DNA of 64,000 nucleotides from Hydrogenovibrio halophilus DSM 15072. GTDB taxonomy: Bacteria; Pseudomonadota; Gammaproteobacteria; Thiomicrospirales; Thiomicrospiraceae. The position numbers and the translations under genes are program-made. Below the pieces are notes generated by a model. It was given only the letters and a program-made list of their open reading frames with translations, was not told the origin of the DNA and did not search any database. The stretch spans positions 496,001 to 560,000 of the forward strand of contig NZ_KB913033.1 of assembly GCF_000384235.1 (NCBI RefSeq). The letters run 5' to 3'. The first letter of the stretch is position 1. Each line of letters opens with the position of its first letter. This document shows positions 1,679 to 16,566 of this stretch, in pieces.

Positions 1679-2125
1679 TCAGGCCGATGCGGTTTTGCTA
1701 TCAAATTGCACCGGCTTGGAACCGCAGCGTTTGTCAATGATGGTTTGCAGACTGACATCGCTCAAAAACTGATTGATCATCTCGCTCAAATCGGCCCAGA
1801 GCGCATGTGACAGGCATTCCTCACCTTGTTGACAGTTGGATTCACCCCGACAACGGCGTGGTTCCAGGTCTTCGTTAACCGCCAGAATCACTTCATTGAC
1901 CTTGATCTCACCCGCCGGGCGGCTGAGTCGGTAGCCGCCACCCGGTCCGCGTGCGCTCAATACCAGGTCGGCTTTTTTCAGTCTGGAAAAAATCTGCTCC
2001 AGATACGACAGTGAAATCGACTGTCGCTCCGAGATCATCGCCAGCGTAATCGGGCCGTTTGACTGATTCAATGCAATGTCAAGCATCGCGGTGACCGCAT
2101 AGCGGCCTTTGGATGTCAGCTTCAT
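1679..2125 (-). CDS. iscR: Rrf2-family Fe-S cluster regulator IscR
   Basis: Winged-helix Rrf2 repressor/activator that reads Fe-S status through its own [2Fe-2S] cluster. Residues 1-60 form the DNA-binding domain (MKLTSKGRYAVTAMLDIA, ISLSYLEQIFSRLKKADLV, GPGGGYRLSR), and the three cluster cysteines are in RRCRGESNCQQGEECLSH at about 92-104. The length of 148 residues is typical. It stands directly before iscA and after cysE, and has its own promoter. A near-ideal type 1 IscR operator lies on the sufB promoter at 50.3 kb, so this protein very probably controls the suf operon. I do not see an equally clear type 1 site at its own promoter. Confidence 0.96.
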   Translation of the reverse strand: MKLTSKGRYAVTAMLDIALNQSNGPITLAMISERQSISLSYLEQIFSRLKKADLVLSARGPGGGYRLSRPAGEIKVNEVILAVNEDLEPRRCRGESNCQQGEECLSHALWADLSEMINQFLSDVSLQTIIDKRCGSKPVQFDSKTASA

Positions 2126-2158
2126 ACATCACTCTTAGATCTTTGTAAATGAACACCC

Positions 2159-2187
2159 ATCATACAAAAACCCACCAAATAACTCAA
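2159..2187 (-). promoter_or_regulatory. Candidate sigma70 promoter of iscR-iscA
   Basis: On minus, TTGAGT (2187-2182) and TATGAT (2164-2159) are separated by 17 bases. The -35 box overlaps the cysE stop codon, so iscR-iscA can be transcribed apart from trmJ-cysE. Confidence 0.6.
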
Positions 2188-2990
2188 GATTTGTCCAAAT
2201 CCGTTTGAATCGTGTCACGAATGTGCGCGCGCTGAGCCGGGTCATCCGGCTCCAGCACCGCGTCATCCAGGCCTGGTAATTCCACATGCGAATCCTGCCC
2301 GCCCAGCCGCTGCACCTCTCTGTTCAGGCGTTCCAGCTGTTCATCCTGGCCCTGGATGTGATCCAGCAGACTGTATATGGCTTTTTCCACCGGGTCTTCC
2401 ACATTGCGGCTGACCCCATAGGCGTCAAAACCGATTTTTTCGGCCATGGCTTTGCGTTTACGGCTTTTCTCATCCGTCGGTCGCTCCACCACCCGGCCAG
2501 GAATCCCGACCACCGTGCGCATCGCCGGCACCGGCTTGACCACCACGGCATTGGAACCGATGCGGGCGTCGTCCCCCACCTCAATCGGCCCCAGTACCTT
2601 GGCCCCGGCGCCCACGACCACCCGATCCCCCAGTGTGGGGTGCCGCTTACCTTCCTGCCAGCTGGTGCCACCCAGTGTCACCCCATGGTAGAGGGTGCAG
2701 TCGTCGCCAATCTCGGCGGTTTCGCCAATCACCACGCCCATGCCGTGGTCAATAAAAAACCGACGCCCGATTTTCGCCGCCGGGTGAATTTCAATGCCCG
2801 TCAGCCAGCGCGCCAGACCGGAGACAAAACGCGACAGCCACTTGAGGCGCTTGTGCCACAACCAGTGAGTCAGCCGATAGAACAAAATCGCATGCAGGCC
2901 CGGATAGGTGGTCAACACCTCCAGCGTGTTGCGCGCGGCCGGGTCACGGGCAAACACACAGCGAACGTCTTCCCGAATTCGATCAAACAT
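2184..2990 (-). CDS. cysE: Serine O-acetyltransferase
   Basis: Acetylates serine with acetyl-CoA to give O-acetylserine, the first step of cysteine synthesis. The N-terminal part (residues 1-60) is the helical SAT region, followed by a left-handed parallel beta-helix of hexapeptide repeats with [18 protein letters not shown] and [10 protein letters not shown], which hold the catalytic histidines and the acetyl-CoA site. The length is 268 residues, with an acidic C-terminal tail. The start codon overlaps the end of trmJ by eight bases, showing tight coupling. Cysteine supply next to Fe-S genes is functionally sensible, since cysteine is the sulfur donor for cluster assembly. This trmJ-cysE-iscR order is shared with several gammaproteobacteria. 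Confidence 0.95.
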
Positions 2991-3804
2991 CCGTCGTCTC
3001 CCCCACTGCGTCTTCCAGTCCCGCCGCTTTCAGCCGTGACTGCAAAGTGCTTTTTGACCAGGCCTGCCTTTGGGCAGAACGCAAAATGCCGCGCAGAATG
3101 TCGATTTCCTTGATGTCCAGGCCGCTGCGATTGAACAGACGGCGCATGCGACGCATAAAGCGCGCATTTTTGGCCGGATCCAGAAATTCGATGTCCTGCA
3201 GCGCCTGATACAGATGCTCGTAAAACCCTTCCAACTGCTCGGAACTGGCACGTCGATCCCGATAGCCCTGACCTTCCGGCACATCGTCAAAATCCGACGC
3301 CATCCGGCACTCGTAGCTGAACACCTGCACCGCCTGCGCCAGATTCAGGGAACTGTAATCGGGGTTGGAAGGAATGTGGGCCAGATAATGACACAGGTCC
3401 ATCTCGGCATTGGTCAGCCCCGAATCTTCCCGCCCGAACACCAGTGCCACCGAATCGCCGTGCGCGGCTTGCTGCCAGGCCATCTCCGCCGTCTGGCGCA
3501 CATTCACCTGAGGCCAGGCCACTTTGCGCAAGCGAGCACTGGCGCCGAAAACGGTGGCGCAATCGGCCAGGGCCGTTTCCAGATCCGGCGCCACTTCGGC
3601 CCGATCCAGCAGATCGGCGGCACCGGACGCTCTGGCCGACGCCACCTGACTGGGAAATTCGCGGGGACGAACCAGCGTCAGACGCTGCAAGCCCATGTTT
3701 TTCATGGCTCTGGCCGCCGCCCCGATGTTGCCGGGATGCGAGGTTTCCACCAGCACCACCTTGATTCGACTGAACGCCGACAGGTTTGTTTCCGATTCGC
3801 TCAT
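2983..3804 (-). CDS. trmJ: tRNA (cytidine/uridine-2'-O-)-methyltransferase TrmJ
   Basis: SPOUT-class enzyme that methylates the 2'-OH of residue 32 in several tRNAs using SAM. Family motifs visible are [20 protein letters not shown] at residues 17-36, [19 protein letters not shown] and [19 protein letters not shown], which form the knotted SAM site. A C-terminal helical extension (about residues 190-273) is normal for TrmJ. The ATG at 3804 has GGAAAA just upstream. It is the first gene of the trmJ-cysE-iscR-iscA group and diverges from suhB; the same divergent pair suhB/trmJ is found in E. coli and Pseudomonas. Confidence 0.95.
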
Positions 3805-3814
3805 GCTTTTCCGT

Positions 3815-3820
3815 TATAAT
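3815..3820 (+). promoter_or_regulatory. Perfect -10 box upstream of suhB
   Basis: A consensus TATAAT lies about 50 bases before the suhB start, in the short trmJ/suhB divergent gap. A matching -35 box is not obvious, as it would fall inside the trmJ start region. Confidence 0.4.
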
Positions 3821-3868
3821 GGGCCCAATTTTACGAACCCCCATTCTAACAAAACCGGACGGATTGTT

Positions 3869-4696
3869 ATGCACCCGATTCTCAATATCGCCACCCAGGC
3901 CGCCAAAGACGCCGGGGAATTCATCGCCAACCAGCTGCAAAACATTGACCGCTTGAACATCGAACACAAGGGGCGCAACGACTACGTCAGCGAAGTGGAC
4001 CGACAGGCCGAACGCATCATCATCGACACCATCCACAAATATTACCCGGCCCACAGCATTCTGGCTGAGGAAAGCGGTCACCACCACAAGGATTCCGACA
4101 TCGAGTGGATCATTGACCCACTCGACGGCACCACCAACTTTCTGCACCAGTTTCCCCAGTTTGCCGTGTCCATTGCCGTGACCGAAAAAGGGAAATTGAT
4201 GCATGGCGTGATCTACGACCCTCTGCGCGACGAGCTGTTCAGCGCCAGCAGAGGCCAGGGCGCACGAGTCAACAACTACCGCATCCGAGTCAGCAACCAG
4301 AACACGCTGGCCGATGCGCTGATGGCCACCGGCATTCCCTACTACAACTTTGATTACGTGGACGCCTATCTGGAAAGCTTCAAGGAATTCATGATCTCCA
4401 CCGCCGGTATCCGTCGTCCCGGCTCGGCGGCACTGGATCTGGCCTATGTCGCCAGCGGTCGCGTGGATGGGTATTGGGAATTGAACCTCAAGCCCTGGGA
4501 CATCGCCGCCGGCGCTTTGATTGTGCAGGAAGCCGGTGGCATGATCACCGATTTCATGGGCGGAGACGGCTATCTTCAGTCCGGCAACATCATTGCCGCC
4601 AACCCGAAAATGCTCAAGGAAATGGCCAGTGTGATCGGTCGCACCATTCCCGAGGAATTCCGCCGCAACCGTCCGGCACAGGCCAACCCCAAGTAA
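3869..4696 (+). CDS. suhB: Inositol-1-monophosphatase / Nus factor SuhB
   Basis: Mg-dependent phosphatase of the inositol monophosphatase family; in E. coli SuhB also works with Nus factors in rRNA transcription antitermination. The metal-binding motifs are visible: EESG, then DPLDGTTNFLH, and WDIAAGALIVQEAGG near residue 210. The ATG at 3869 gives 275 residues (MHPILNIATQAAKDAG), matching the family N-terminus; a longer open frame upstream overlaps trmJ and is not used. It is transcribed away from trmJ and faces rimI, with an ACCAGGCCTGGT palindrome in the convergent gap. Confidence 0.95.
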   Translation: MHPILNIATQAAKDAGEFIANQLQNIDRLNIEHKGRNDYVSEVDRQAERIIIDTIHKYYPAHSILAEESGHHHKDSDIEWIIDPLDGTTNFLHQFPQFAVSIAVTEKGKLMHGVIYDPLRDELFSASRGQGARVNNYRIRVSNQNTLADALMATGIPYYNFDYVDAYLESFKEFMISTAGIRRPGSAALDLAYVASGRVDGYWELNLKPWDIAAGALIVQEAGGMITDFMGGDGYLQSGNIIAANPKMLKEMASVIGRTIPEEFRRNRPAQANPK

Positions 4697-4758
4697 CCCG
4701 ACGTTGCAAAAGACCGGAAACGGTCAGCAAAAACGGTTAAAAGGCACCTGCAAAACTG

Positions 4759-4770
4759 ACCAGGCCTGGT
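4759..4770. repeat. ACCAGGCCTGGT palindrome, copy 1
   Basis: Exact 12-bp core in the convergent gap between suhB and rimI, with TAA on the right flank. Member of a twelve-copy family in this window. Confidence 0.95.
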
Positions 4771-4778
4771 TAATCCGA

Positions 4779-5267
4779 TCATTTCAGGGAATACGACATC
4801 AGACAGGCGTCTTCCCGACCGCTTTGGGTCGGATAATAATTGGGGCGATGCCCGTCCACCTGAAACCCCAGTGATTGATACAAAATTTTGGCCGGGTTAG
4901 ACACGCGCACTTCCAGCAACACCCGCTGCCAGCCTTGCGCAGAAAAGGTTTCCAGCAGCTGCCCAAATGCCACCCGCCCCAAGCCCTGACGCTGAAAGGC
5001 GGGGGCAATGCAAAAATTGAGCACTTCCACCTCGTCCACCACCGGTCGGCAGAACGCATACCCAACCGGTTGCCAGTCCCCTTCCCGCGCCCGGGCAATC
5101 AGATAATTCAGCCCCTGGTCCAGCGCCAACTCAAACCCTCGACGGCTCCAGGGCCAGGCATACGCCGTCCGCTCCACCGACTGCACCCAATCCAGATCGG
5201 CTTCGTCCAGTGGTTTGAGGAACAACGATTGAGTGACGGGCGATTCGGTAACGGACGATTCAGTCAC
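4779..5267 (-). CDS. rimI: Ribosomal protein S18 alanine N-acetyltransferase RimI
   Basis: GNAT-family acetyltransferase that acetylates the N-terminus of ribosomal protein S18. The acetyl-CoA motif QRQGLGRVAF is present, preceded by EVLNFCIAP and followed by LLEVRVSNPAKILYQSLGF, all typical of RimI. I choose the GTG at 5267, whose bases overlap the stop codon of the upstream holD-like gene, giving 162 residues. The longer frame upstream reads through holD in another frame and has no family match. The repeated TESxVT segment at the N-terminus (TESSVTESPVTQS) is unusual and probably a disordered extension. holD-rimI is a known pair in E. coli, which supports both calls. Confidence 0.88.
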   Translation of the reverse strand: MTESSVTESPVTQSLFLKPLDEADLDWVQSVERTAYAWPWSRRGFELALDQGLNYLIARAREGDWQPVGYAFCRPVVDEVEVLNFCIAPAFQRQGLGRVAFGQLLETFSAQGWQRVLLEVRVSNPAKILYQSLGFQVDGHRPNYYPTQSGREDACLMSYSLK

Positions 5268-5796
5268 GTTCGGTCCAGGCCAGCCATTGCTGATACAGCG
5301 CTTTTTTCTGCAAAGGCGCGGCCAGCATTTGCGAGGCAGGGGGCACCGGCTCAACCATCACCCCTTCGGCCAGCTCCTGCACAAACGGATGTGCCAGATC
5401 GGTGCACAAGGCCAGATCGGGCCCGAAGTCGATCAAGCGTTCCAGACAATCAAACTGGGCGTCGTCGTCAGGCAAGGTTGACGGGTCCAGCCACTGCCAG
5501 TTTTGCGGCGCCACCCCAAAGGCCGCAAACGCGTTCGCGACCAGTGTTTGCGCGCGCTCACCGGCCGCCGTCAAACCCGGTTCCACCCACAAAAACCGCT
5601 GCAGCCCGGCCGCCGCCACGGCTTCGCCATCAGACGCCTCGGCCGCCATCGATCCGCCGGGCACGGATTCCGCGACCTGACTGGTCTGTACGGAATCGCC
5701 CAGGGCGGCCGACACAGGCATGGCAAATTCGGGTTTCAAGCGCCAAGGCTGAACCCCCAGTTGAGCAAAAAAGGACGCGGACAGAGACATCGTCAT
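5260..5796 (-). CDS. holD: Probable DNA polymerase III psi subunit HolD
   Basis: A poorly conserved protein of 178 residues. The N-terminus FFAQLGVQPWRLKPE resembles the chi-binding start of E. coli HolD (QLGITQWSLRRP), and the end PLQKKALYQQWLAWTERD resembles its C-terminal helix (ARAALWQQI...). The protein lies directly upstream of rimI with overlapping ends, the same order as in E. coli. If right, it links chi to the gamma/tau clamp-loader complex. The middle (residues 30-90) is Ala/Glu-rich and longer than in E. coli. The match is seen by eye only and is moderate; a lineage-specific protein remains possible. Confidence 0.6.
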   Translation of the reverse strand: MTMSLSASFFAQLGVQPWRLKPEFAMPVSAALGDSVQTSQVAESVPGGSMAAEASDGEAVAAAGLQRFLWVEPGLTAAGERAQTLVANAFAAFGVAPQNWQWLDPSTLPDDDAQFDCLERLIDFGPDLALCTDLAHPFVQELAEGVMVEPVPPASQMLAAPLQKKALYQQWLAWTERD

Positions 5797-5798
5797 AC

Positions 5799-7352
5799 TC
5801 AGACCGGTGCCTGTGGATGGGCCTTGAGCCCTTCGTCCATCAGTTTGTTCAGCGCATTGATATAGGCCTTGGCCGACGCAATCACAATGTCGGTGTCGGT
5901 ACCCTGACCATTGACAATGCGCCCGCCTTTTTCCATGCGCACCGAGGTTTCGCCCAATGAATCGGTGCCATTGGTCACATTGCTGACCGAGTACAACTCC
6001 AGACTGGCACCGGAATCGACGATGCGTTCAATCGCCTTGAAGGTGGCGTCCACGGCACCGCCCCCCTCGGCGCTGGCCTGTTTTTCTTCGCCATTCAGCC
6101 AGAGCGTGACCTGCGCCATCGGCGACTCGCCGGTTTCGCTTTGCACCCTCATCGATACCAGTTTGACCTGCTCGTTTTCAGTGCGGCGGCTGTCGTTATC
6201 GGTCACCAGCGCCTGGATGTCCTCATCGTAAATTTCGTGTTTGCGGTCCGCCAGCGCCTTAAAACTCATAAAGGCTTCGGACAGTTCGGTTTCGGTCTCA
6301 AACGCAATGCCCAACGACAGACACCGATCCCGAAACGCATTGCGCCCTGAATGCTTGCCCAGCACCATGCGGTTCATGCTCCAGCCCACGTCCTCGGCGC
6401 GCATGATTTCATAGGTTTCGCGATGTTTGAGCACGCCGTCCTGATGAATGCCGGACTCGTGGGCAAAGGCATTGGCCCCGACAATCGCCTTGTTGGGTTG
6501 AACCGCAAACCCGGTAATACTGGCCACCAGACGCGACGCCGCCAGAATTTCCGGCGTATGAATGCGGGTGTCCACCGGAAACACATCCTGTCGGGTGCGC
6601 ACCGCCATCACCACTTCTTCCAGCGCCGTATTGCCCGCACGTTCGCCCAGACCGTTGATGGTGCATTCCACCTGACGTGCGCCGGCCTGAACCGCCGCCA
6701 GAGAGTTGGCCACGGCCAGCCCGAGGTCATTGTGACAATGGGCCGAAAACACGGCCTTGTCGGAATTGGGGATGCGAGTGAGCAATTGGTGAATGCGTTC
6801 GCCGAACTGCTCGGGAATGTTGTAACCCACCGTGTCCGGGATATTGATGGTGGTGGCCCCGGCGTCAATCGCCGCCTCGATCACCCGACACAGAAAGTCC
6901 AGGTCGGAGCGCCCGGCGTCTTCGGGTGAGAACTCCACATCGTCGGTAAAGTCGCGCGCACGCTTGACCGCCCAGACGGCTTGCTCCACCACCTGATCGG
7001 GCGTCATTTTCAGCTTTTTTTCCATGTGAATGGGCGAGGTGGCAATAAAGGTATGAATCCGACCCGCTTCGGCTGGGGCAATCGCTTCGCCGGCGCGGAC
7101 AATGTCGTTTTCCAGAGCCCGTGCCAGGCCACAGACACGGCTGTCGCGGACGGCCTCGGCCACCGAACGCACCGCTTCAAAATCGCCCTGACTGGCGGCA
7201 GGAAACCCGGCTTCGATCACGTCCACCCGCAGTTTTTCCAGCTGGCGGGCAATTCGGATTTTTTCTTCCCGGGTCATACTGGCACCCGGACTCTGTTCCC
7301 CATCACGCAGCGTGGTATCAAAGATAATCAAACGGTCCGTTGCATCAGTCAT
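5799..7352 (-). CDS. leuA: 2-isopropylmalate synthase
   Basis: Condenses acetyl-CoA with 2-oxoisovalerate, the first committed step of leucine synthesis. The N-terminal TIM-barrel starts with [18 protein letters not shown], carries [14 protein letters not shown] and [15 protein letters not shown], and is followed by the LeuA dimer regulatory domain (about residues 390-510) where leucine binds. The length of 517 residues is typical of the bacterial type 1 enzyme. Its start overlaps the end of pssA by eight bases and it is followed after two bases by holD-rimI, so all four are probably one operon. I see no leader-peptide attenuator. Confidence 0.97.
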
Positions 7353-8175
7353 GGCGTTGTGGCTCTTCTTTCTTTGTGGAAGGTTCAGAGGACTCGCTGT
7401 CTACAGTCGCCTCACTCTGAGCGGTTTCGGTCTGAGGGTTTTCCGGTTTGTTACGGCGGCGTTTCTGCCGACGTCGCTGAATTTCTTTCAAGGTCCAGAC
7501 CGGGCCGGAAATGGCATAGAGCAAAAACAGCAAAAACAGAATCATCGAAGGCTTGAGAGTGATCACCACAAAAACCAGCACCGCCAGCAACAGAGTCACA
7601 AACGGCACCTTGTCTTTCAGATTCAGCTCCTTGAACGAACTGAAACGGACATTGCTCACCATCATCAGCCCGGCCACAGCGGTGAGCACCAGCGCCACCG
7701 GCCCGGCCAGATCGGGATTCAACGGATTGGTTTCAAACATCCAGATAAACCCGGCAATCAACGCCGCGGCTGCCGGACTGGGAAGCCCCTGGAAATAGCG
7801 TTTGTCCGCCACCCCGACCTGGGTGTTAAAGCGCGCCAGACGCAGTGCCGCGGCCGCCGTAAACACAAAGGCAACCAGCCAGCCGATTTTGCCGTAACCG
7901 CTCAACACCCACTGGTACATCAGCAGCGCCGGAGCCAGACCAAACGAGATCATGTCGGCCAGACTGTCGAATTCGGCACCAAAGGCGCTGGAAGTCTGAG
8001 TCATCCGGGCAATCCGCCCATCGAGCCCGTCGAACACCATCGCCACAAAAATCGCGATCGCGCCCAGCTGGTAATCGCCGTTCATGCCCGCAATCACGGC
8101 ATAAAAGCCAGAAAACAGCGCGATCATGGTCATCAGATTCGGCAACAGATAAATGCCTTTTTCAAACGATTTCAT
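7345..8175 (-). CDS. pssA: CDP-diacylglycerol--serine O-phosphatidyltransferase
   Basis: Inner-membrane enzyme that makes phosphatidylserine, the precursor of phosphatidylethanolamine. The CDP-alcohol phosphotransferase signature is visible as [26 protein letters not shown] (read here as D-G-x2-A/R-R-x8-G-x3-D-x3-D). Several hydrophobic segments follow, and the C-terminus is a charged tail (residues 240-276) rich in Arg, Glu and Ser. The ATG at 8175 has AAGGA just upstream and gives 276 residues; an in-frame TTG four codons earlier is less likely. leuA follows with an eight-base overlap; pssA-leuA pairs are known in other proteobacteria. Confidence 0.93.
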
Positions 8176-8214
8176 AGCATCCTTCAATCGTAATTGGGTG
8201 AATGTTGTCCCGGC

Positions 8215-9528
8215 TTAAATCGGGTCGCCGCGTCCAACGGCGAAATAACGGAACCCGAACGATTTTAACACCGAATGTTCGTAAATATTACGCCCATCAA
8301 AAATCACCGGTCGACGCATGCGCTCGATCATCTGCTCATAATCGGGCGTCCAGAAACGGCGCCACTCGGTCATCACCATCAGCGCATCGACACCGTCCAG
8401 CGCCTGATACATGTCGTCCACCAGGGTCACGCCCGGGCGCTCGCCCCAGTAACGACGAAAAGACGCCCCGGCCTTGGGATCGTAGGCAACCACTTCGGCC
8501 CCCTGCGCCACCAGCGCTTCAATGGTTTTGACACTGGGCGCATTGTCCACCGTGGCGGTATTGGGTTTGAACGACAGACCCCATACCGCGATTTTGCGGC
8601 CCTTGAGGTCGTTCTTGAAAAAACGCCAGGCCTTACGAAACAGCACTTCCTTCTGGGTTTCATTGTTCTGCAACACCGCCTTAAGCAGGTCGGCATCATA
8701 ACCTTTGGACTGCAGCGTGCCCACCAATGACTGCACATCCGCGGCAAAACTGGGACCACCGAAACCGCAACCGGGGAAAAGGTAATTAAACCCGATCCGA
8801 TTGTCCGATCCCAGTCCCTGACGCACTTCTTCCATATCGATATTGAAATGCTCGGCGTTGTTGGCCAGTTCGTTGACCAGACTGATGCGCGTCGCCAACA
8901 GCGCATTGACCGCGTACTTGGTGTACTCGGCCGCACGGGTCGACATCACCTTGACCTGATCGGTCACATGATTGAACGGGCGCATCAAATCGCGAATGAT
9001 CGCGGTCGATTGTTGATCGTGACTGCCCAGCACCACCCGGTCTGGTTTGGAAAAATCGCTGATCGCCGAACCTTCACTGATGAATTCCGGCATCGACACC
9101 ACCGACACCTTGGCCACCAACCCTCTCTGAGCAAAGGCCAGCTTAATCGAGGCCTCAAACCGATCGGCGGTACCAATCGGAAAGGTACTCTGGTTGATCA
9201 CCAGCACATCCTTGCTGGCGGTCTGGCCAATCGCTTCGATCACCTCTTCGGCCTTTTCGGAGCGCCAGGACGGCATGCTGAGCATGTAAATGCCGGCATG
9301 AGCAATCCCGGCCTGCCAGTCTTCCGAAAACCGCAGACGCCCTTCCGTCACCTGGCTCTTGACCAGCGTGGTCAACCCCGGTTCGTCCCGAGGCAACAGA
9401 CCCTGCTCCAGGTCACGGACCTTCAACAGATTCCCCACTGGCATGGCCAGCACGTCATTGCCGGTATGGGCCAGCGAACCGGCCGTCACCAGCCCGCTGA
9501 GCTCACACCCGAATACCGATATTTTCAT
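8215..9528 (-). CDS. UDP-glucose 6-dehydrogenase homologue lacking key catalytic and NAD-binding residues
   Basis: Full-length (437 residues) member of the UDP-glucose/GDP-mannose dehydrogenase family, aligned easily over its whole length. The nucleophile region, normally GGSCFPKD, here reads GGPSFAAD (residues 257-264): the catalytic cysteine is Ser260 and the neighbouring lysine is Ala263. The NAD fold is changed too: the GxGxxG loop is GCELSG (7-12), the acidic residue after the second strand is Pro30, and the VGTP segment is replaced by MLSMPS. In contrast Lys204, Asn208 and Asp264 are kept. The frame is intact and sits between pgi (four-base overlap) and downstream pssA. I infer an inactive or repurposed enzyme, perhaps a UDP-sugar sensor; a true dehydrogenase is unlikely. 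Confidence 0.85.
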   Translation of the reverse strand: MKISVFGCELSGLVTAGSLAHTGNDVLAMPVGNLLKVRDLEQGLLPRDEPGLTTLVKSQVTEGRLRFSEDWQAGIAHAGIYMLSMPSWRSEKAEEVIEAIGQTASKDVLVINQSTFPIGTADRFEASIKLAFAQRGLVAKVSVVSMPEFISEGSAISDFSKPDRVVLGSHDQQSTAIIRDLMRPFNHVTDQVKVMSTRAAEYTKYAVNALLATRISLVNELANNAEHFNIDMEEVRQGLGSDNRIGFNYLFPGCGFGGPSFAADVQSLVGTLQSKGYDADLLKAVLQNNETQKEVLFRKAWRFFKNDLKGRKIAVWGLSFKPNTATVDNAPSVKTIEALVAQGAEVVAYDPKAGASFRRYWGERPGVTLVDDMYQALDGVDALMVMTEWRRFWTPDYEQMIERMRRPVIFDGRNIYEHSVLKSFGFRYFAVGRGDPI

Positions 9529-11156
9529 GGCACCACCCGTTTGATCAATGTTTTTGTGGACTCGTCAAAGGCATCGAGAAGCGTCGGATCCTTGATCGCT
9601 TGATAGGTTTCCTTGGCAATTTGCTTGCCCAGCTCCACCCCCCACTGGTCAAAGGAATTGATCTCCCAGATTACGCCTTCCACATAAGTTTTGTGTTCGT
9701 ACATGGCAATCAGCATGCCCAGCGTATGAGCCGAAAGGGTGTCGATCAACAGCGTATTGGAAGGCTGATTGCCCGGATAATGCTTGAACGGCGAATCAAA
9801 ACTGGCTTTCAGCGACTCGGGAATGGCTTCGTCCCCCAGCATCAACACCCGCGACTGGGCAAAGCAGTTGGCCAGCGCCAATTCGTGCTGATGGCGCAGG
9901 CTTTCATTTTTCTCTGAATGCAGATTGGGATCAAAATCGTCGCGCGTGGTCGGAGCGATGAAATCGCACATGACGGCCTGGGTGCCCTGATGCAGCAATT
10001 GATAGAAAGCGTGCTGGGCATTGGGACCGACCTCGCCCCACAGCACCGGACAGGTTTTGTAGGCCACCCGGTCGCCCGACTTGGTCACGGCCTTGCCGTT
10101 GCTCTCCATCACCAGTTGCTCCAGATAGGAGGGCAGGTAACGCAGGCGCGCGTCATAGGGCAGAATCGCCTTGTCGTGAATGTCCAGAAAATTGATGTTC
10201 CAGATGTCGATCATGCCCAGCACCACCGGAATATTGTGTTCCAGTTCGGTGGTCATAAAGTGCTGATCCATCATGTGCGCACCGCGCAACAGTTCACGAA
10301 AGCCCTGCATGCCGATTTTCAGCGCAATGGGCAAGCCGATGGACGACCACAGAGAATAACGCCCTCCGACCCAATCCCAGAAAGCCAGCTGATTGGCGGT
10401 CGGGATGCCCCATTCGTCCATTTTTTTGCTGCTGGCCGAGACCCCGATAAAATGCTGCGACAGGATGGCCGCGTCATCGGGAATGCATTCCTGCAACCAA
10501 TCCTTGGCCGTTTCCGCATTCGAAAGCGTGTCAATGGTGGTAAAGGATTTGGACGCCAGAATGAACAGCGTGGTTTCCTGATTCAGATCCCGCAACAGGT
10601 TCGAAGTCTGAGTGCCGTCAATCGAGGAAATAAAATGCAGCCGCACCGGCGACTCAATGGTCTGCAAGCTGTGGGTGATCATCAAGGGCCCCAAATCCGA
10701 ACCGCCCACGCCGATGTTCACCACATCGGTAATGGGTTTGCCGGTATAACCGCGCCAATGCCCGGAACGGATTTTATTCGCCAGCCCCGCCATCTTCTCC
10801 AGCACTTCGGCCACCTGAGGCTGCACCTCGGCGGCATAGCCGGATACGTCCTCGCCCTGGGCGCGCAAAGCCGTATGCAGCGCCGGGCGGTTTTCGGTTT
10901 CATTGACCACCTCCCCTCGGGTCAAACGGTCAATCGCATCCGGCAACTTCTGCTGACGCGCCAGATCCATCAATAAAGCCAGAGTCTCATGCGTGATCCG
11001 GTTTTTGGAAAAATCCACGTACAACTGATCGAATGCCAACGAAAATTCACTGACTCGGTTTGGCTGCCGAAACAGATTGGCCAGATGCTGACTGCCGACA
11101 CCGGCATCGCAATGCAGCTGCAAGGCCTGCCAGGCCGATGATTGTTCTACCCCCAT
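9525..11156 (-). CDS. pgi: Glucose-6-phosphate isomerase
   Basis: Interconverts glucose 6-phosphate and fructose 6-phosphate. Characteristic segments are VNIGVGGSDLGPLM, GGRYSLWSSIGLPIAL and the C-terminal INSFDQWGVELGKQIA, which contain substrate-binding and catalytic residues. The length of 543 residues is normal. The ATG at 11156 has AGAGAGGA upstream. It overlaps the dehydrogenase-like gene by four bases (ATGA) and follows galU after about 50 bases, so galU-pgi-ugd-like form one sugar-nucleotide unit: glucose 6-phosphate supply and UDP-glucose formation. Confidence 0.97.
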   Translation of the reverse strand: MGVEQSSAWQALQLHCDAGVGSQHLANLFRQPNRVSEFSLAFDQLYVDFSKNRITHETLALLMDLARQQKLPDAIDRLTRGEVVNETENRPALHTALRAQGEDVSGYAAEVQPQVAEVLEKMAGLANKIRSGHWRGYTGKPITDVVNIGVGGSDLGPLMITHSLQTIESPVRLHFISSIDGTQTSNLLRDLNQETTLFILASKSFTTIDTLSNAETAKDWLQECIPDDAAILSQHFIGVSASSKKMDEWGIPTANQLAFWDWVGGRYSLWSSIGLPIALKIGMQGFRELLRGAHMMDQHFMTTELEHNIPVVLGMIDIWNINFLDIHDKAILPYDARLRYLPSYLEQLVMESNGKAVTKSGDRVAYKTCPVLWGEVGPNAQHAFYQLLHQGTQAVMCDFIAPTTRDDFDPNLHSEKNESLRHQHELALANCFAQSRVLMLGDEAIPESLKASFDSPFKHYPGNQPSNTLLIDTLSAHTLGMLIAMYEHKTYVEGVIWEINSFDQWGVELGKQIAKETYQAIKDPTLLDAFDESTKTLIKRVVP

Positions 11157-11204
11157 AATCCTCTCTCTTTATTTTTCTGTGGCCGGTTTTTATCAAGGGC
11201 TAAG

Positions 11205-12080
11205 TTAAAACTTGAGTCCTTTGAGGTATTGTTTGAACCCTTTGCCCAGTTGGGCATCGCGCAGGGCATACTCCACATTGGCCTGCAGATAGCCCTGCTT
11301 GTCACCGCAGTCATAGGTGTGACCGTTTTTGAATTCAAATCCGAACATCACTTCTTCTTCCAGCAACTGGTCCATCGCGTCCGTCAGCTGAATTTCGCCG
11401 CCCGCGCCCGGCTTGGTGTCTTTGAGCAACTCCATCAGTCGCGGGGTAAAAATGTAACGCCCTACCACCGACAAATTGGACGGTGCTTCCTGCGGCTTGG
11501 GCTTTTCCACCAGCTCCACAATGCGCATATCCGGGCCTTTCACCCCGGCAATGCCGTACTTCTCCACCTGGTCTTCGGCCACAGCCTCCAACGCCACCAC
11601 ACTGGTGTGCATTTTCTTATACTGCTGCGTCATCTGGGCCAAACACCCTTTTCTCGGGTGATACATCAGCACATCCGGTAACAGCACGGCAAAAGGTTCA
11701 TTGTCCGCAATCACCGGTTCCGCACACAAAATGGCGTGCCCCAAGCCCAGCGCCTCCGGCTGGCGCACACTGACTATGCGCACGCCCTTGGGGGTAATCT
11801 CCTCCAGACTGACCATGCGATCGCTTTTCCCGCGCAAATTCAGCTCGGATTCCAGCTCGTAATGTTTGTCAAAGTGGTTCTCAATCGCCGCCTTGCTGGA
11901 ATGCGTCACCAATATGATGTCGGTAATGCCGGCTTCCGCGGCTTCGTGCACAATGTATTGAATCAGGGGTTTGTCCACCACCGTCAGCATTTCCTTGGGA
12001 ATCGCCTTGGTGGCTGGCAGAAAACGCGTGCCCAGGCCCGCCACCGGAATCACGGCTTTGGTCAGTTTCTTCAAAGACAT
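11205..12080 (-). CDS. galU: UTP--glucose-1-phosphate uridylyltransferase
   Basis: Makes UDP-glucose from glucose 1-phosphate and UTP for LPS, polysaccharide and trehalose synthesis. The N-terminus AVIPVAGLGTRFLPATKAIP is the nucleotide-binding signature, and later segments (GLGHAILCAEPVI, YRPRKG-like loop, DTKPGAGGEIQLTDAM) are typical. The length of 291 residues matches bacterial GalU. It is the first gene of the galU-pgi unit. UDP-glucose is the substrate that the adjacent, apparently inactive dehydrogenase homologue would bind. Confidence 0.97.
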   Translation of the reverse strand: MSLKKLTKAVIPVAGLGTRFLPATKAIPKEMLTVVDKPLIQYIVHEAAEAGITDIILVTHSSKAAIENHFDKHYELESELNLRGKSDRMVSLEEITPKGVRIVSVRQPEALGLGHAILCAEPVIADNEPFAVLLPDVLMYHPRKGCLAQMTQQYKKMHTSVVALEAVAEDQVEKYGIAGVKGPDMRIVELVEKPKPQEAPSNLSVVGRYIFTPRLMELLKDTKPGAGGEIQLTDAMDQLLEEEVMFGFEFKNGHTYDCGDKQGYLQANVEYALRDAQLGKGFKQYLKGLKF

Positions 12081-12193
12081 ACTACTATCCTTTGCTCAGC
12101 AAACCCCGGCCCAATCCAGGCGGATTGCGAAGGCCGAGGTTTCGTTCGATTTTCGTACCAGCCCCGTTGCCGGCAAGCGTGTGACTGTCAGTA

Positions 12194-12199
12194 AGTATA
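12194..12199 (-). promoter_or_regulatory. Candidate -10 box of galU
   Basis: TATACT on minus, about 115 bases before the galU start, in the gap to tusA. The -35 region (GTTCAG at 16 bases) is weak. Confidence 0.35.
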
Positions 12200-12251
12200 A
12201 CGGAGTCCGGGCAAACTGAACACTCTTTGCCGCCCCCATCGCCTGATCGGC

Positions 12252-12476
12252 TCAATCTGGCCGCGTCACCACAAATCGAAAGGGACGGCCGTCTTCCCGG
12301 CTCGGCGACTCACACCCCAATCCCTGCTGCTCACAGAAAGCCGGCAAATCCCGCAGTGATCCCGGGTCGGTCGAATAAAGCTCAAACTGCGTCACTTCCG
12401 GGCCTTCTGCCAATGCCTGCTTGAGTTTCAGCAACGGCATGGGGCAAGGCAAATCACACACATCAATGGTTTTCAT
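12252..12476 (-). CDS. tusA: TusA-family sulfur carrier protein
   Basis: Small (74 residues) cytosolic sulfur carrier. The motif DVCDLPCPMPLLKLKQAL contains the CPxP cysteine that carries persulfide sulfur. E. coli TusA passes sulfur to the TusBCD relay for tRNA thiolation, while in sulfur oxidisers TusA homologues also feed oxidative sulfur metabolism. The C-terminal half is Pro/Arg-rich (SPSREDGRPFRFVVTRPD) as in short homologues. No rhd, dsrE or hdr genes are beside it. It diverges from bepA, and foldback element copy A lies in the divergent gap. Confidence 0.85.
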   Translation of the reverse strand: MKTIDVCDLPCPMPLLKLKQALAEGPEVTQFELYSTDPGSLRDLPAFCEQQGLGCESPSREDGRPFRFVVTRPD

Positions 12477-12495
12477 ACGCCATAATTCCTCTTAT

Positions 12496-12660
12496 ACCCG
12501 AATGTTTCATAAACTTTGTGCCGAGGTCGCGCTGAAACTTGATTTCACAAGGAAATTTTCGAAGAAGTGTCGTATCAAACGATTACGACCGACTGAGAAA
12601 ATATTGCTTGTGGAATCAAGGGGCAAGCGAGATCGGTGTAAATTTGTGAAATATTCGGGT
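12496..12660 (-). repeat. Foldback (MITE-like) element, copy A
   Basis: About 165 bp bounded by ACCCGAA and TTCGGGT, in the tusA/bepA divergent gap. It is inverted relative to copies B (39969) and C (52223) and more diverged from them. Its two halves are imperfect reverse complements, so the whole unit can fold into one long hairpin. It is flanked by TAT on both sides. No open frame for a transposase fits inside. Confidence 0.85.
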
Positions 12661-12748
12661 TATATACTAATGTCATTATCTTACAATAGCATGAATCCTG
12701 CCCGATCTTCGATTGCACCACACCCCTTCAGCCACTAAGATTCCATCC

Positions 12749-14200
12749 ATGACATTCAAACACGGCTTCCCGCTCATGCAGTCCCTTCGGCCCTTGGCTC
12801 GCGCCGCGCTTTTCAGCCTTCTGATCGCGACACTTTCCTGTGCCCAGGCCGGATTGCACAGCGACCTCCCAGACCTGGGCGCGCCCGACCTGGTCTCCTA
12901 CACGCCGGAAAAGGAACAGGCTTTGGGTCGGGCGTTTTCCACCACCCTGCACACCCAATTTGACATGATTCAGGACCCCACGCTGCTGGACTACGTCCGC
13001 CAGATCGGCGCCCGCATCACCAGTCAGACCCAATCCCAGCGGGATTATCGCTTTTATGTCATCGACCGCTCTGACATCAACGCGTTTGCCGGACCCAACG
13101 GCATCATCGGCCTGCATTCCGGGCTGATTCTGGCCGCCCGCTCCGAAGACGAGCTGGCCTCGGTCATTGCCCATGAAATCGCCCACGTGACCCAGCGCCA
13201 CCTTTCCCGGCGCTACGAATACCAGAACAACAACACCGCCACCACCATCGCCTCCCTGATTGCCGCCATTCTGGTCGGATCACAGAACCCGAGCGCGGGC
13301 ATGGCGACCATGATGGGCGCCACCGGCCTCAACTTACAGCAACAACTGAAAAACTCCCGCCTGCACGAGAACGAGGCCGATCACTTCGGGATTCGTTACC
13401 TGACCGAAGCCGGTTACAACCCCTTTGCCATGGGCGACTTTTTTGGGCGACTGGCCCGCGAATCCCAGTATGACGAATTCGCCCTGCCGGAAATCCTCCG
13501 CACTCACCCGGTTTCCGCCGACCGCCTCGCCCGTGCCGACGACCGCGCCGGACAAATGCCGACGGACAGCCAAAAGCGGGCCTCTCAGAAAGACACCCTG
13601 ACACTGATGCAACTGCGTCTGCAAAACCGCCACCCGGAAGACATCAATGCGTTCGAGCAGGCGAAACTGTCATCGGCACAAAGCTGCTACCGCAAAAACC
13701 ACCAGGCCTGGTTAAAACAACAGGACACCGCGGTAGCCTATTCACTGAAATGTCTGGACCAGGCCGAGCAGGACGCTGCAGCGTCCCCTTATTATGCGTT
13801 GCTCAAGGCCCAGATCCAGACCCGGCTCAAACGCCGCGACGCACTGAAAACCCTGGACTACCTCACCGAGATCTACCCACGCAATGCGGCCATGGTCCTT
13901 GCCAGAGCCCGTGCTTTGCAGGCATTTGAAGGTCCGCAGGCCGCCATCGCCTACCTGGAACAAAACGTCGACCGGTTCCTTCACAAGGCCGAATTCTACA
14001 ACCGGTTATCGCAGCTGCACACCGAACAGGAAGACGACTTTTACAGCGATTACTATCAGGCATTACTGCAAGAACATCTGGGCAACATCGAAAAAGCCCG
14101 CTATCTGAGCCGGCAGGCCGAAGCGCACGTGACCGCTGAAATGCGCAAAAAAAATGCAAGGATTGAGCAACTGAAATCGCGCCTGACACAATATCGCTGA
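12749..14200 (+). CDS. bepA: Periplasmic M48 metalloprotease/chaperone BepA-like
   Basis: Zinc metalloprotease that in E. coli assists or degrades stalled LptD and BamA at the outer membrane. A signal peptide is visible (LARAALFSLLIATLSCAQA), followed by the M48 domain with the zinc motif HEIAHVTQRH at about residue 142 and a downstream NEADHFG glutamate ligand. The C-terminal half (about 290-483) is helical and TPR-like. From the ATG at 12749 the protein is 483 residues, close to E. coli BepA (487); another ATG at 12776 would still include the signal peptide. Neither has a strong ribosome binding site. A palindrome copy lies inside the frame at 13701, encoding HQAWLK. Confidence 0.87.
   Translation: MTFKHGFPLMQSLRPLARAALFSLLIATLSCAQAGLHSDLPDLGAPDLVSYTPEKEQALGRAFSTTLHTQFDMIQDPTLLDYVRQIGARITSQTQSQRDYRFYVIDRSDINAFAGPNGIIGLHSGLILAARSEDELASVIAHEIAHVTQRHLSRRYEYQNNNTATTIASLIAAILVGSQNPSAGMATMMGATGLNLQQQLKNSRLHENEADHFGIRYLTEAGYNPFAMGDFFGRLARESQYDEFALPEILRTHPVSADRLARADDRAGQMPTDSQKRASQKDTLTLMQLRLQNRHPEDINAFEQAKLSSAQSCYRKNHQAWLKQQDTAVAYSLKCLDQAEQDAAASPYYALLKAQIQTRLKRRDALKTLDYLTEIYPRNAAMVLARARALQAFEGPQAAIAYLEQNVDRFLHKAEFYNRLSQLHTEQEDDFYSDYYQALLQEHLGNIEKARYLSRQAEAHVTAEMRKKNARIEQLKSRLTQYR
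13701..13712. repeat. ACCAGGCCTGGT palindrome, copy 2
   Basis: Exact core inside bepA, right flank TAA; one of few copies within a coding region. Confidence 0.95.
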
Positions 14201-14322: not shown

Positions 14323-14399
14323 TTTCACTCGCTCAAAAATAAGACCCTGTAAGGGGAGCATAATCGAAAAGTCACTTGGCTTTTTTAGGAGGATATAGA

Positions 14400-14774
14400 A
14401 TGTTGAAAATGAAAATGAAGCAATTCCTGACTGCTGTCGCTGTTTCATCAGCGTGTGTTGCCGCGCCATCCGTCGCGTTCGCCGACAACCACGGTGCCAG
14501 CGCCATTGAGGAAGGAAAGGAATTGTCTTTTGGACGCTCCAAAGGCAACTGCCTGGCTTGTCACATGATTCAGGGCGCCAACATGCCCGGTAACATTGGG
14601 CCGGCTCTGGTAGCCATGGAAATGCGCTATCCTGACAAGCAAAAACTCTACGACAAAATCTGGGGCACACCCGAAACCATCGTAGAAGACAGCATGATGC
14701 CGCATTTTGGAGCCAACGGAATCTTGTCTGACGAAGAGATTCAAAAAATTACCGATTACATCTACACTCTGTAA
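14400..14774 (+). CDS. soxX: Sulfur-oxidation c-type cytochrome SoxX
   Basis: Monohaem subunit of the SoxXA cytochrome, which starts thiosulfate oxidation by attaching it to the SoxY carrier cysteine. The signal peptide ends near SVAFADN, the haem motif is NCLACH, and MPHFG near the C-terminus can give the axial methionine. The strong site AGGAGG precedes the ATG at 14400, giving 124 residues. It is the first gene of soxXYZA. Confidence 0.95.
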   Translation: MLKMKMKQFLTAVAVSSACVAAPSVAFADNHGASAIEEGKELSFGRSKGNCLACHMIQGANMPGNIGPALVAMEMRYPDKQKLYDKIWGTPETIVEDSMMPHFGANGILSDEEIQKITDYIYTL

Positions 14775-14818
14775 TTGTTAATCATTTTAGTTAAACCTTA
14801 ACCGGGAGTTAAAACCTT

Positions 14819-15286
14819 ATGAAACGCAGATCTTTCCTGAAAGGTACCCTTGCCACTGGTGCTGCAGCCGTTGCAGCAAACGCTGGCCTGTTGACCCCAT
14901 CTACCGTACTGGCAGATTGGAACGAGAAAGCATTTAAAGCAGAAACCGTTGACGGTGGTTTGGACGCGATGTTCGGCACCACTTCCACAACCGATTCTGA
15001 TGACATCGACCTGTCTGCACCGGCCATCGCCGAGAATGGCGCGGTTACCCCAATCAAAATCGACGCGTCCAAAATGGACGGTGTTGAGTCCATTGCCATT
15101 ATGGCAACCAAAAACCCAAGCCCAATGGTTTGCCGTTATGACTTCTCCGGTCCAGCCGTAGGGTATGTTTCCACTCGTATCCGTATGGGTGAAACCATGA
15201 ACGTCGTCGCCCTGGTGAAAGCTGGCGGCAACCTGTATAAGAAAGAACAGGAAGTGAAAGTCACCATCGGTGGTTGTGGCGGTTAA
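14819..15286 (+). CDS. soxY: Thiosulfate oxidation carrier protein SoxY
   Basis: Substrate carrier of the Sox system: sulfur intermediates are bound to the cysteine in its swinging C-terminal arm. The frame ends in GGCGG (151-155), the diagnostic tail. The N-terminus KRRSFLKGTLATGAAAVAA is a Tat signal with the twin arginines, and export is expected together with SoxZ. A second cysteine in SPMVCRYDF (about residue 104) is not part of the carrier motif. GGGAG lies upstream of the ATG at 14819. Confidence 0.97.
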   Translation: MKRRSFLKGTLATGAAAVAANAGLLTPSTVLADWNEKAFKAETVDGGLDAMFGTTSTTDSDDIDLSAPAIAENGAVTPIKIDASKMDGVESIAIMATKNPSPMVCRYDFSGPAVGYVSTRIRMGETMNVVALVKAGGNLYKKEQEVKVTIGGCGG

Positions 15287-15337
15287 TTCCCCTCCCTCAC
15301 TTCAAACATTTTTATACTGAATTAAAAAGGAACGACT

Positions 15338-15646
15338 ATGTCTATTAAAATTCGTATGCGTGGCCGCGCAAAAGGCGGCGTTGCAGAAGTAAAAGCACTG
15401 ATCAAGCACAAAATGGAATCCGGTGCTCGCATGAACAAAAAAACCGGCAAGCCATATCCTGCTGACTACATCAACGTGGTCGAAGTCATGGTAAACGGAA
15501 CCAAAGCCATTGATTCTCAGTGGTCTGGTGCGATCTCTGCCAACCCATACATGGGCGTAAAGGTCAAAGCCGACAAAGGTGACGAAGTCACTCTGAAGCT
15601 GCAGGACATGAGCGGCAACACTGGTGAGCACACCATCAAAGTTTAA
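15338..15646 (+). CDS. soxZ: Thiosulfate oxidation carrier complex protein SoxZ
   Basis: Partner of SoxY with an immunoglobulin-like fold; 102 residues, no signal peptide, so it must be exported bound to Tat-dependent SoxY. Conserved segments are IKIRMRG, LIKHKMESGARMNKKTGK and the C-terminal GNTGEHTIKV. The start has AAGGA upstream. It lies between soxY and soxA in one strand-consistent operon. Confidence 0.96.
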   Translation: MSIKIRMRGRAKGGVAEVKALIKHKMESGARMNKKTGKPYPADYINVVEVMVNGTKAIDSQWSGAISANPYMGVKVKADKGDEVTLKLQDMSGNTGEHTIKV

Positions 15647-15659
15647 TCCCGATTAAGCT

Positions 15660-15688
15660 GACAGCAACCCGCTCTGCGGGTTGCTGAT
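15660..15688 (+). terminator. Stable hairpin between soxZ and soxA
   Basis: CAGCAACCCGC and GCGGGTTGCTG form an 11-bp perfect stem with a three-base loop. No run of T follows, so it is more likely an mRNA-stabilising or processing element than a full terminator, and may make soxXYZ more abundant than soxA. Confidence 0.6.
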
Positions 15689-15732
15689 ACCAAAAATAAA
15701 ATATTATCATCGTTTTCGGACGGAGGAATGGG

Positions 15733-16566
15733 ATGAAGAAAACATTGCTAGTCGCCTTAACACTGGGCGCAACCGCAACCGCTGCCACCAACGTAATGGC
15801 CGGTGGAGTCGATCCGGAGAAAAGCCGGATTCAATTAGTTGAGTACTTCCAAGCGAAGAACCCCAACATCGCACCAGAAGAGTACATTAATGGTGCTTAT
15901 ATCTACAACGAGGACAAATTCATGCAGTGGGAAGCTGCTGAAGAGTTCCCTCCCTATTTGGATGCCGTTGATGCCGGTGAAGCGCTTTATCAGCAAGACA
16001 AAGCTGTCTATGACAAGTGTTTCGGTTCGGACGTAACCAAAATCCGCAACCAATACCCACGCTTCAACGAATCAACGCAACAGGTTGAAACCCTGGAAGG
16101 GCAAATCAACCAGTGTCGTGCTGACAATGACCTGAAACCATTCAAGTGGAAGAAAGGCGACATCGCACAGTTGTCCGCTTACATGGCGTATGAAGCCCGT
16201 GGCCAGAAAATCAACGTAGATGCCAGCTCACCAGGCGCCAAAGAAGCCTTTAACAAAGGGCAGGCTTTCTATGTTGAAGAACGTGGTCAGCTCGGCTTGT
16301 CGTGTGCAAAATGCCACACTTACAATGCCGGTCGTAAAGCGCGTTCCAACACTCTGTCAGCCAACCTGGGTCACACCACGCACTTCCCGGTCTTCCGTGC
16401 CAAATGGCAGGAACTGGGTACCCTGCACCGTCGTTATGGCGGCTGTAACAAAAACATGCGTGCCAAGCCGATGAAAGCGCAGAGCGAAGAATATCGCAAT
16501 CTGGAGTTCTTCCAGGCGTACATGTCAAACGGTCTGGAAATCAACGGTCCAGGTTATCGCGAATAA
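15733..16566 (+). CDS. soxA: Sulfur-oxidation c-type cytochrome SoxA (single haem motif)
   Basis: Catalytic subunit of SoxXA. A signal peptide (LLVALTLGATATAATNVMA) precedes the mature protein. Only one CxxCH is present, CAKCH at 191-195; the N-terminal haem of dihaem SoxA is replaced by lone cysteines (C96, C128) that probably form a disulfide, as in type II SoxA. The active-site cysteine is C238 in RRYGGCNKNMRAK. The length is 277 residues. GGAGG lies upstream of the ATG. soxB and soxCD are not in the window; in related sulfur oxidisers they map elsewhere. Confidence 0.95.
   Translation: MKKTLLVALTLGATATAATNVMAGGVDPEKSRIQLVEYFQAKNPNIAPEEYINGAYIYNEDKFMQWEAAEEFPPYLDAVDAGEALYQQDKAVYDKCFGSDVTKIRNQYPRFNESTQQVETLEGQINQCRADNDLKPFKWKKGDIAQLSAYMAYEARGQKINVDASSPGAKEAFNKGQAFYVEERGQLGLSCAKCHTYNAGRKARSNTLSANLGHTTHFPVFRAKWQELGTLHRRYGGCNKNMRAKPMKAQSEEYRNLEFFQAYMSNGLEINGPGYRE

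Follow-up and report, generated by a model that had tools for sequence, protein, structure and literature searches.

In a 64,000-nt stretch of the Hydrogenovibrio halophilus DSM 15072 genome (contig NZ_KB913033.1, positions 496,001 to 560,000; hereafter the window), we identified a gene that, judged from its sequence, encodes a pseudoenzyme belonging to the nucleotide-sugar dehydrogenase superfamily. This pseudo-UGD (pUGD) has lost the NAD-site and catalytic residues of UDP-glucose dehydrogenase (UGD), keeps the residues that contact UDP-glucose, and overlaps the gene for glucose-6-phosphate isomerase (Pgi). These features suggest that it is no broken gene but a so far unrecognised protein that senses or regulates the flow of sugar. 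The most likely reading, to which we give about an even chance, is a UDP-glucose sensor acting on Pgi and perhaps on GalU. The galU-pgi context described in the original prediction was confirmed, the minus-strand order being galU, pgi, pUGD, pssA and leuA:

11205..12080, minus strand: galU, UTP-glucose-1-phosphate uridylyltransferase (TIGR01099, 342 bits, cut-off 326.8)
9525..11156, minus strand: pgi, glucose-6-phosphate isomerase (NF001211, 721 bits, cut-off 492)
9525..9528, minus strand: ATGA, in which the pgi stop and the pUGD start share 4 nt (52 of 60 pseudo loci have an overlap here)
8215..9528, minus strand: pUGD, 437 aa, ATG start, assigned from UGD-superfamily profiles and the predicted fold
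7345..8187, minus strand: pssA, downstream neighbour in the window's branch (profile search)
5799..7352, minus strand: leuA, after pssA in the window's branch (profile search)

The N, central and C domains of the UGD superfamily are all present in the window's pUGD according to both profiles and predicted fold. All three UGD Pfam domains scored far over their cut-offs and TIGR03026 (nucleotide sugar dehydrogenase) matched with 306 bits against a cut-off of 189.8, bearing out the full family length claimed earlier. Every NCBIfam and Pfam match at E 0.001 belonged to the UGD superfamily, with none pointing to GalU homology. The nearest solved structure by sequence is BceC (2y0e). An AlphaFold model reached a pLDDT of 92.5 and a pTM of 0.86 from 47 aligned sequences, mostly canonical enzymes, so that the model may lean towards the canonical shape. 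Its top VIA-align match was BceC 2y0d_B (Z 49.9, 1.6 Å over 433 residues, 41% identity), and Foldseek likewise placed BceC first. pUGD therefore resembles the BceC-type UDP-glucose 6-dehydrogenases (2y0c/2y0d/2y0e) in its three-domain fold and UDP-glucose residues, but is without their NAD site, VGTP loop, Tyr10 and Cys260.

For the residue comparison, 60 pseudo proteins from 59 genomes (57 from the window's order, 2 from another order) were set against 107 reference rows, among which sits one further pseudo-type protein, L113; Streptococcus pyogenes UGD numbering was mapped through shared motifs, not by alignment with that enzyme. The accessible part of PMC4794789 lists 18 invariant residues with roles from an alignment of 229 nucleotide-sugar dehydrogenases, and by motif mapping the window's pUGD keeps 15 of these, without Gly9, Thr83 and Cys260. 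Tyr10, Asp29 and Arg327, described there as "highly conserved", are also missing, and all six lost residues have NAD-binding or catalytic roles. The same part of that paper mentions a few sequences lacking Tyr10, Asp29 or Arg327, their function being unproven. The main lesions are as follows:

9493..9510, minus strand: Rossmann loop GCELSG, codons 7-12, Gly7 and Gly12 kept, Gly9 and Tyr10 gone
9439..9441, minus strand: NAD-ribose Asp position, codon 30, here Pro (P 31, G 23, others 6 of 60; D never)
9259..9276, minus strand: codons 85-90, site of the canonical VGTPPxEDGSAD, Thr83 loop deleted
8749..8751, minus strand: catalytic Cys260 position, here Ser (S 23, N 19, H 10, Y 5, D 2, G 1; C never)

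Gly9 is absent in all 60 pseudo proteins, and the conserved columns deleted with the VGTP loop are occupied in none of the 60 rows. Tyr10, which takes part in thioester hydrolysis, is Leu in the window and Tyr in 4 of 60, while residue 263 is Ala in the window and A, R, K, E and others across the group. Arg327, which salt-bridges the NAD pyrophosphate in S. pyogenes UGD (PMC4794789, accessible part), corresponds to Asp328 in the window and is Arg in just 2 of 60; the Lys of the KST motif is lost altogether (0 of 45 rows). The substitutions predicted at positions 260, 263 and 30 and the loss of the VGTP segment (VGTPPxEDG) were all confirmed. The predicted GCELSG form of the GxGxxG loop was also confirmed, with the refinement that both outer glycines stay and only Gly9, together with Tyr10, is lost. 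The view of five independent losses in this one gene had to be abandoned: most losses are common to the whole pseudo group, 45 members of which form a single tree group, and are thus old, and further losses exist at Arg327 and the KST Lys. Since pUGD has neither an NAD site nor the nucleophile, we strongly infer that it would be unable to make UDP-glucuronate by the known mechanism.

Residues of the UDP-sugar site have fared differently:

8917..8919, minus strand: Lys204, codon 204, sugar site, 60 of 60
8905..8907, minus strand: Asn208, codon 208, sugar site, 60 of 60
8797..8799, minus strand: Arg244, codon 244, 60 of 60
8737..8739, minus strand: Asp264, codon 264, general-base residue, 59 of 60
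8566..8568, minus strand: Lys321, codon 321, diphosphate contact, 60 of 60
8290..8292, minus strand: Arg413 (FDGRN), codon 413, 60 of 60

The UDP-glucose site formed by Lys204, Asn208, Arg244, Gly257 and Lys320 is thus present in all 60 pseudo proteins, as are Asn219, Gly258 and Asn289. Arg413 presumably corresponds to human Arg442, which has a ligand role. The preservation of Lys204, Asn208 and Asp264, predicted for the window alone, extends to its relatives at the counts given above. According to the accessible part of PMC4794789, Lys204, Asn208, Arg244 and Lys321 touch the substrate in active relatives, Asp264 is the base, and Arg244 of S. pyogenes UGD reaches the glucose bound in the adjacent subunit; all UDP-glucose-contacting residues named there remain in the window's pUGD. 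Retention of UDP-sugar binding is therefore well supported by the sequence, the kept site including the Arg that serves the neighbouring subunit. Some of the kept residues could nevertheless be partly structural. Glu148 has become Asp in 38 of the 60 proteins and Thr115 is kept in only 26. The whole site is not kept in every copy, since L076 (G007) has Gly for Asp264 and Lys for Glu152; this protein (397-1704) is the most diverged pUGD, with a long tree branch, and the sole PF00984 member found in its genome.

The pseudo group has also acquired invariants of its own: Arg214, Trp301 and Gln342 are pseudo-specific in 45 of 45 rows, and Trp393 is likewise a pseudo-specific conserved residue. Over 45 of the 60 pseudo rows and 28 of 106 canonical rows, mean column entropy was 1.82 in pseudo vs 1.25 in canonical proteins for the N domain, 1.10 vs 0.84 for the central domain and 1.58 vs 1.43 for the C domain. 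The greater variability of the N domain is what one would predict had the NAD site been freed from constraint while the UDP site stayed under it.

Of the 62 genomes from the window's order, 57 gave a match to the pUGD profile. Four of the five negative genomes are also without a pgi match, and in the fifth (G011) the pgi match stops at a contig end, so gaps in the assemblies or a loss of both genes together seem to account for these absences. The second order has pUGD in 3 of 6 genomes, with two of the three negatives at least 95% complete. The group carrying pUGD is probably made up of autotrophic sulfur oxidisers. A survey of the class, in which 158 of 370 genomes passed E 1e-140 and 25 new loci were read (2 pseudo, 23 canonical), may miss weaker or unrelated dead UGDs; among the best 80 contig-scan matches listed, L108 and L113 were pseudo-type and the other 78 had Cys. 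L113 is encoded by a Methylococcaceae MAG (DTSI01000100.1), where, within 1958-4767, the pseudo-UGD follows a seeming decayed insertion sequence and precedes a PGM/PMM-family gene; pgi was not found upstream of it.

In a tree of 73 proteins, built from the same rows as the entropy values, a branch of 1.24 changes per column (support 100/100) separates the 45 pseudo rows from the 28 canonical ones; as the tree is midpoint-rooted, "clade" presumes an outside root, and the trait's own columns were kept in it. Canonical UGDs of the same family (L054, L059, L078 and L207) group with the canonical rows. The reading frame is open in all 60 pseudo sequences, L049 being cut by a contig end. Of 18 hand-picked pairs, 12 had a pUGD dS above 2 or undefined, and in the remaining six dN/dS for pUGD (pgi in brackets) was 0.031 (0.041), 0.018 (0.017), 0.060 (0.046), 0.057 (0.048), 0.067 (0.066) and, for L041-L077, 0.22 (0.15). 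These ratios are low and, in most of the six pairs, near the pgi value. The pUGD protein diverges faster than pgi in some pairs, with for example 76 vs 86% identity in L055-L188. Loss of catalytic residues under continued purifying selection characterises a pseudoenzyme, and both are found here. These results agree with the original prediction of a changed function under selection: orthologues with the same substitutions exist (60 proteins, none with Cys260 or the VGTP loop), the UDP-sugar residues are invariant among them, and a high nonsynonymous rate was looked for in these pairs and not seen.

The window's genome does hold another ugd, as the original prediction had proposed to check. This second, short-type gene (G000:C1, from about 3768; 397 aa) lies far from the window and encodes GYGGYCLPKD with the catalytic Cys; it is of a distant type, sharing 28% identity with pUGD over query residues 88-351. 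Twelve of the 57 genomes yielded no PF00984 gene other than pUGD (G007, G013, G014, G023, G033, G058, G061, G067, G069, G073, G074 and G077); genomes showing a single such gene may be incomplete, and completeness is 99% or higher in G013, G023, G033, G058 and G061. Hence pUGD appears to need no other UGD, and the suggestion that it modulates another dehydrogenase is ruled out as a general role.

All but one of the 60 pseudo loci have pgi at most 300 bp upstream, and in the remaining one, the second G024 copy, it is 1.6 kb off. Among 104 canonical UGD loci, only L051 has pgi there (L113 was dropped, and two more canonical rows with short flanks were set aside). The window's pgi served as the tblastn query, and a very diverged pgi beside canonical UGDs could escape. 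At L238 (G429), included in the pgi check only, pgi is 20 bp away. The overlap between the pUGD start and the pgi stop measures 4 nt in 35 loci and 11 nt in 17. At the junction of pUGD with the next gene, estimated for 49 loci with starts taken from alignments, no overlap occurs. Because the pseudo loci are related, the adjacency and overlap counts are not independent events and may be inherited; the constancy of pgi while the downstream genes change is a stronger argument than the raw counts. What lies downstream of pUGD varies between branches: 27 loci have pssA-leuA and 22 a PMM/PGM-family gene, while neither was found in 11, several of which have little flank. Of the 22 PMM/PGM-family genes, four were checked with Pfam and scored above the cut-off, and the best NCBIfam match of two of these genes was phosphomannomutase CpsG, below cut-off; phosphoglucomutase activity for them is a guess.

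The original prediction also named GalU as a possible partner. Upstream of pgi, galU is present in 44 of 60 loci, 15 others holding too little flank and L195 showing none; galU-to-pgi distances, calculated from alignment-estimated starts, are too rough for use, many being negative. Common as this linkage is, the overlap is with pgi, which makes GalU a less likely specific partner than Pgi, and GalU as a fixed partner was rejected. Scanning 4700-12800 for promoters and terminators gave uninformative counts: a single promoter-like site against 3.1 expected, and 15 terminator-like sites against 9.9 expected (sd 3.3).

Several individual loci deserve mention. At L199 (G065:C187, 2447-5245), Pgi and pUGD share a single open frame of 932 aa; the genome is a draft and 88% complete. 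The close relative L198 has an 11-nt overlap, and a minor difference within a stretch rich in A sets the two junctions apart; since the fusion hinges on this difference in a draft genome, it may be an assembly error. Two contigs of G024 (L047 and L049) each carry galU, pgi and pseudo-UGD, reflecting duplication or a mixed assembly (4% contamination). In Alteromonas oceani (L128, 5001-10400), a canonical ugd and galU are followed by suhB-, trmJ-, cysE- and iscR-like genes, as read from translations, and the same set stands near galU-pgi-pUGD at 1679-4696 of the window; this shared neighbourhood hints that pUGD may descend from an old ugd-galU locus. Small genes resembling sox thiosulfate-oxidation genes, also read from translations, lie near the galU operon at 14376-16566.

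In the reading we favour, pUGD would be a dimer that has probably retained its binding of UDP-glucose, or of a closely related UDP-sugar, and would be unable to oxidise it. It would be made together with Pgi through translational coupling at the overlapping stop and start, bind Pgi and perhaps GalU, and let the amount of end product feed back on the opening step of the route from F6P through G6P and G1P to UDP-glucose. This route is implicated by the pgi overlap and by the neighbours Pgi, GalU and, in one branch, the PMM/PGM-family enzyme. The more specific proposal, a dead UGD turned UDP-glucose-sensing regulatory subunit of phosphoglucose isomerase with end-product feedback at the exit of the F6P pool provided by the two proteins and perhaps by one natural fusion of them, is tentative. 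To our knowledge, no such UDP-glucose feedback control point is known for Pgi.

Known proteins offer partial parallels. OpgH of Escherichia coli and UgtP of Bacillus subtilis respond to the UDP-glucose level and affect cell size through FtsZ. Both are glucosyltransferases by which a nutrient signal influences cell size (PMC3723540, PMC5889556, accessible parts); their likeness to the proposed pUGD lies only in how they work, as UDP-glucose-linked proteins with a second job, and is independent of homology. GalF, a paralogue of E. coli GalU, is called a regulator and its catalytic ability is disputed in the accessible part of PMC4643126, and the TIGR01105 family is named 'GalU regulator GalF'. 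Like GalF, pUGD is a relative of a UDP-glucose-pathway enzyme with doubtful catalysis, but GalF is a relative of GalU and pUGD a relative of UGD tied to Pgi. No report of a dead UGD of this kind was found in a literature search of titles and abstract openings covering few subscription journals.

Among the other explanations, it is rather unlikely that pUGD serves Pgi, or an assembly of GalU with Pgi, as a scaffold or assembly partner without regulated ligand binding, the kept residues holding the dimer and loops. Adjacency to and overlap with pgi would fit such a role, as would the classification of the invariant Asn219, Asn289 and Gly258 as loop or turn residues in the accessible part of PMC4794789, and the pseudo-specific R214, W301, Q342 and W393 could form a contact surface; however, the substrate contacts Lys204, Asn208, Arg244 and Lys321 and the base Asp264, as assigned by that source, are invariant or nearly so. 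The persistence of Asp264 in 59 of 60 proteins and of Lys204 and Asn208 in all of them would also suit an NAD-independent UDP-sugar enzyme using these three residues for new chemistry. We regard this as doubtful, because position 260 drifts among S, N, H, Y, D and G and position 263 drifts too, which is unusual for a working active site.

It is very improbable that pUGD is a modulating subunit of an active UGD encoded elsewhere: the Cys-bearing second gene of the window's genome could supply the partner, but that protein is only distantly related to pUGD, and no other PF00984 gene accompanies pUGD in the 12 genomes listed, five of them at least 99% complete. No more credible is a UDP-sugar dehydrogenase that is still active through an unusual mechanism or use of its cofactor, for which full length and an intact predicted fold speak, given that Cys260, Thr83, Gly9 and the ribose Asp are gone in 60 of 60 proteins, with Tyr10 left in 4 and Arg327 in 2. 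A decaying gene, which the lost catalytic residues might suggest, has a negligible chance in view of the orthologues kept across a deep group, 60 open frames of 60, and a dN/dS that, among the six pairs with dS below 2, is 0.02-0.07 in all but one (0.22).

Because pUGD passes the cut-off for nucleotide sugar dehydrogenases (TIGR03026), automatic annotation would give it an activity that its sequence does not support. pUGD offers a natural experiment in which a two-substrate enzyme has lost one site and kept the other. If the coupling to Pgi is functional, it would be a new control of the branch from central carbon to UDP-glucose, and a clean two-protein system.
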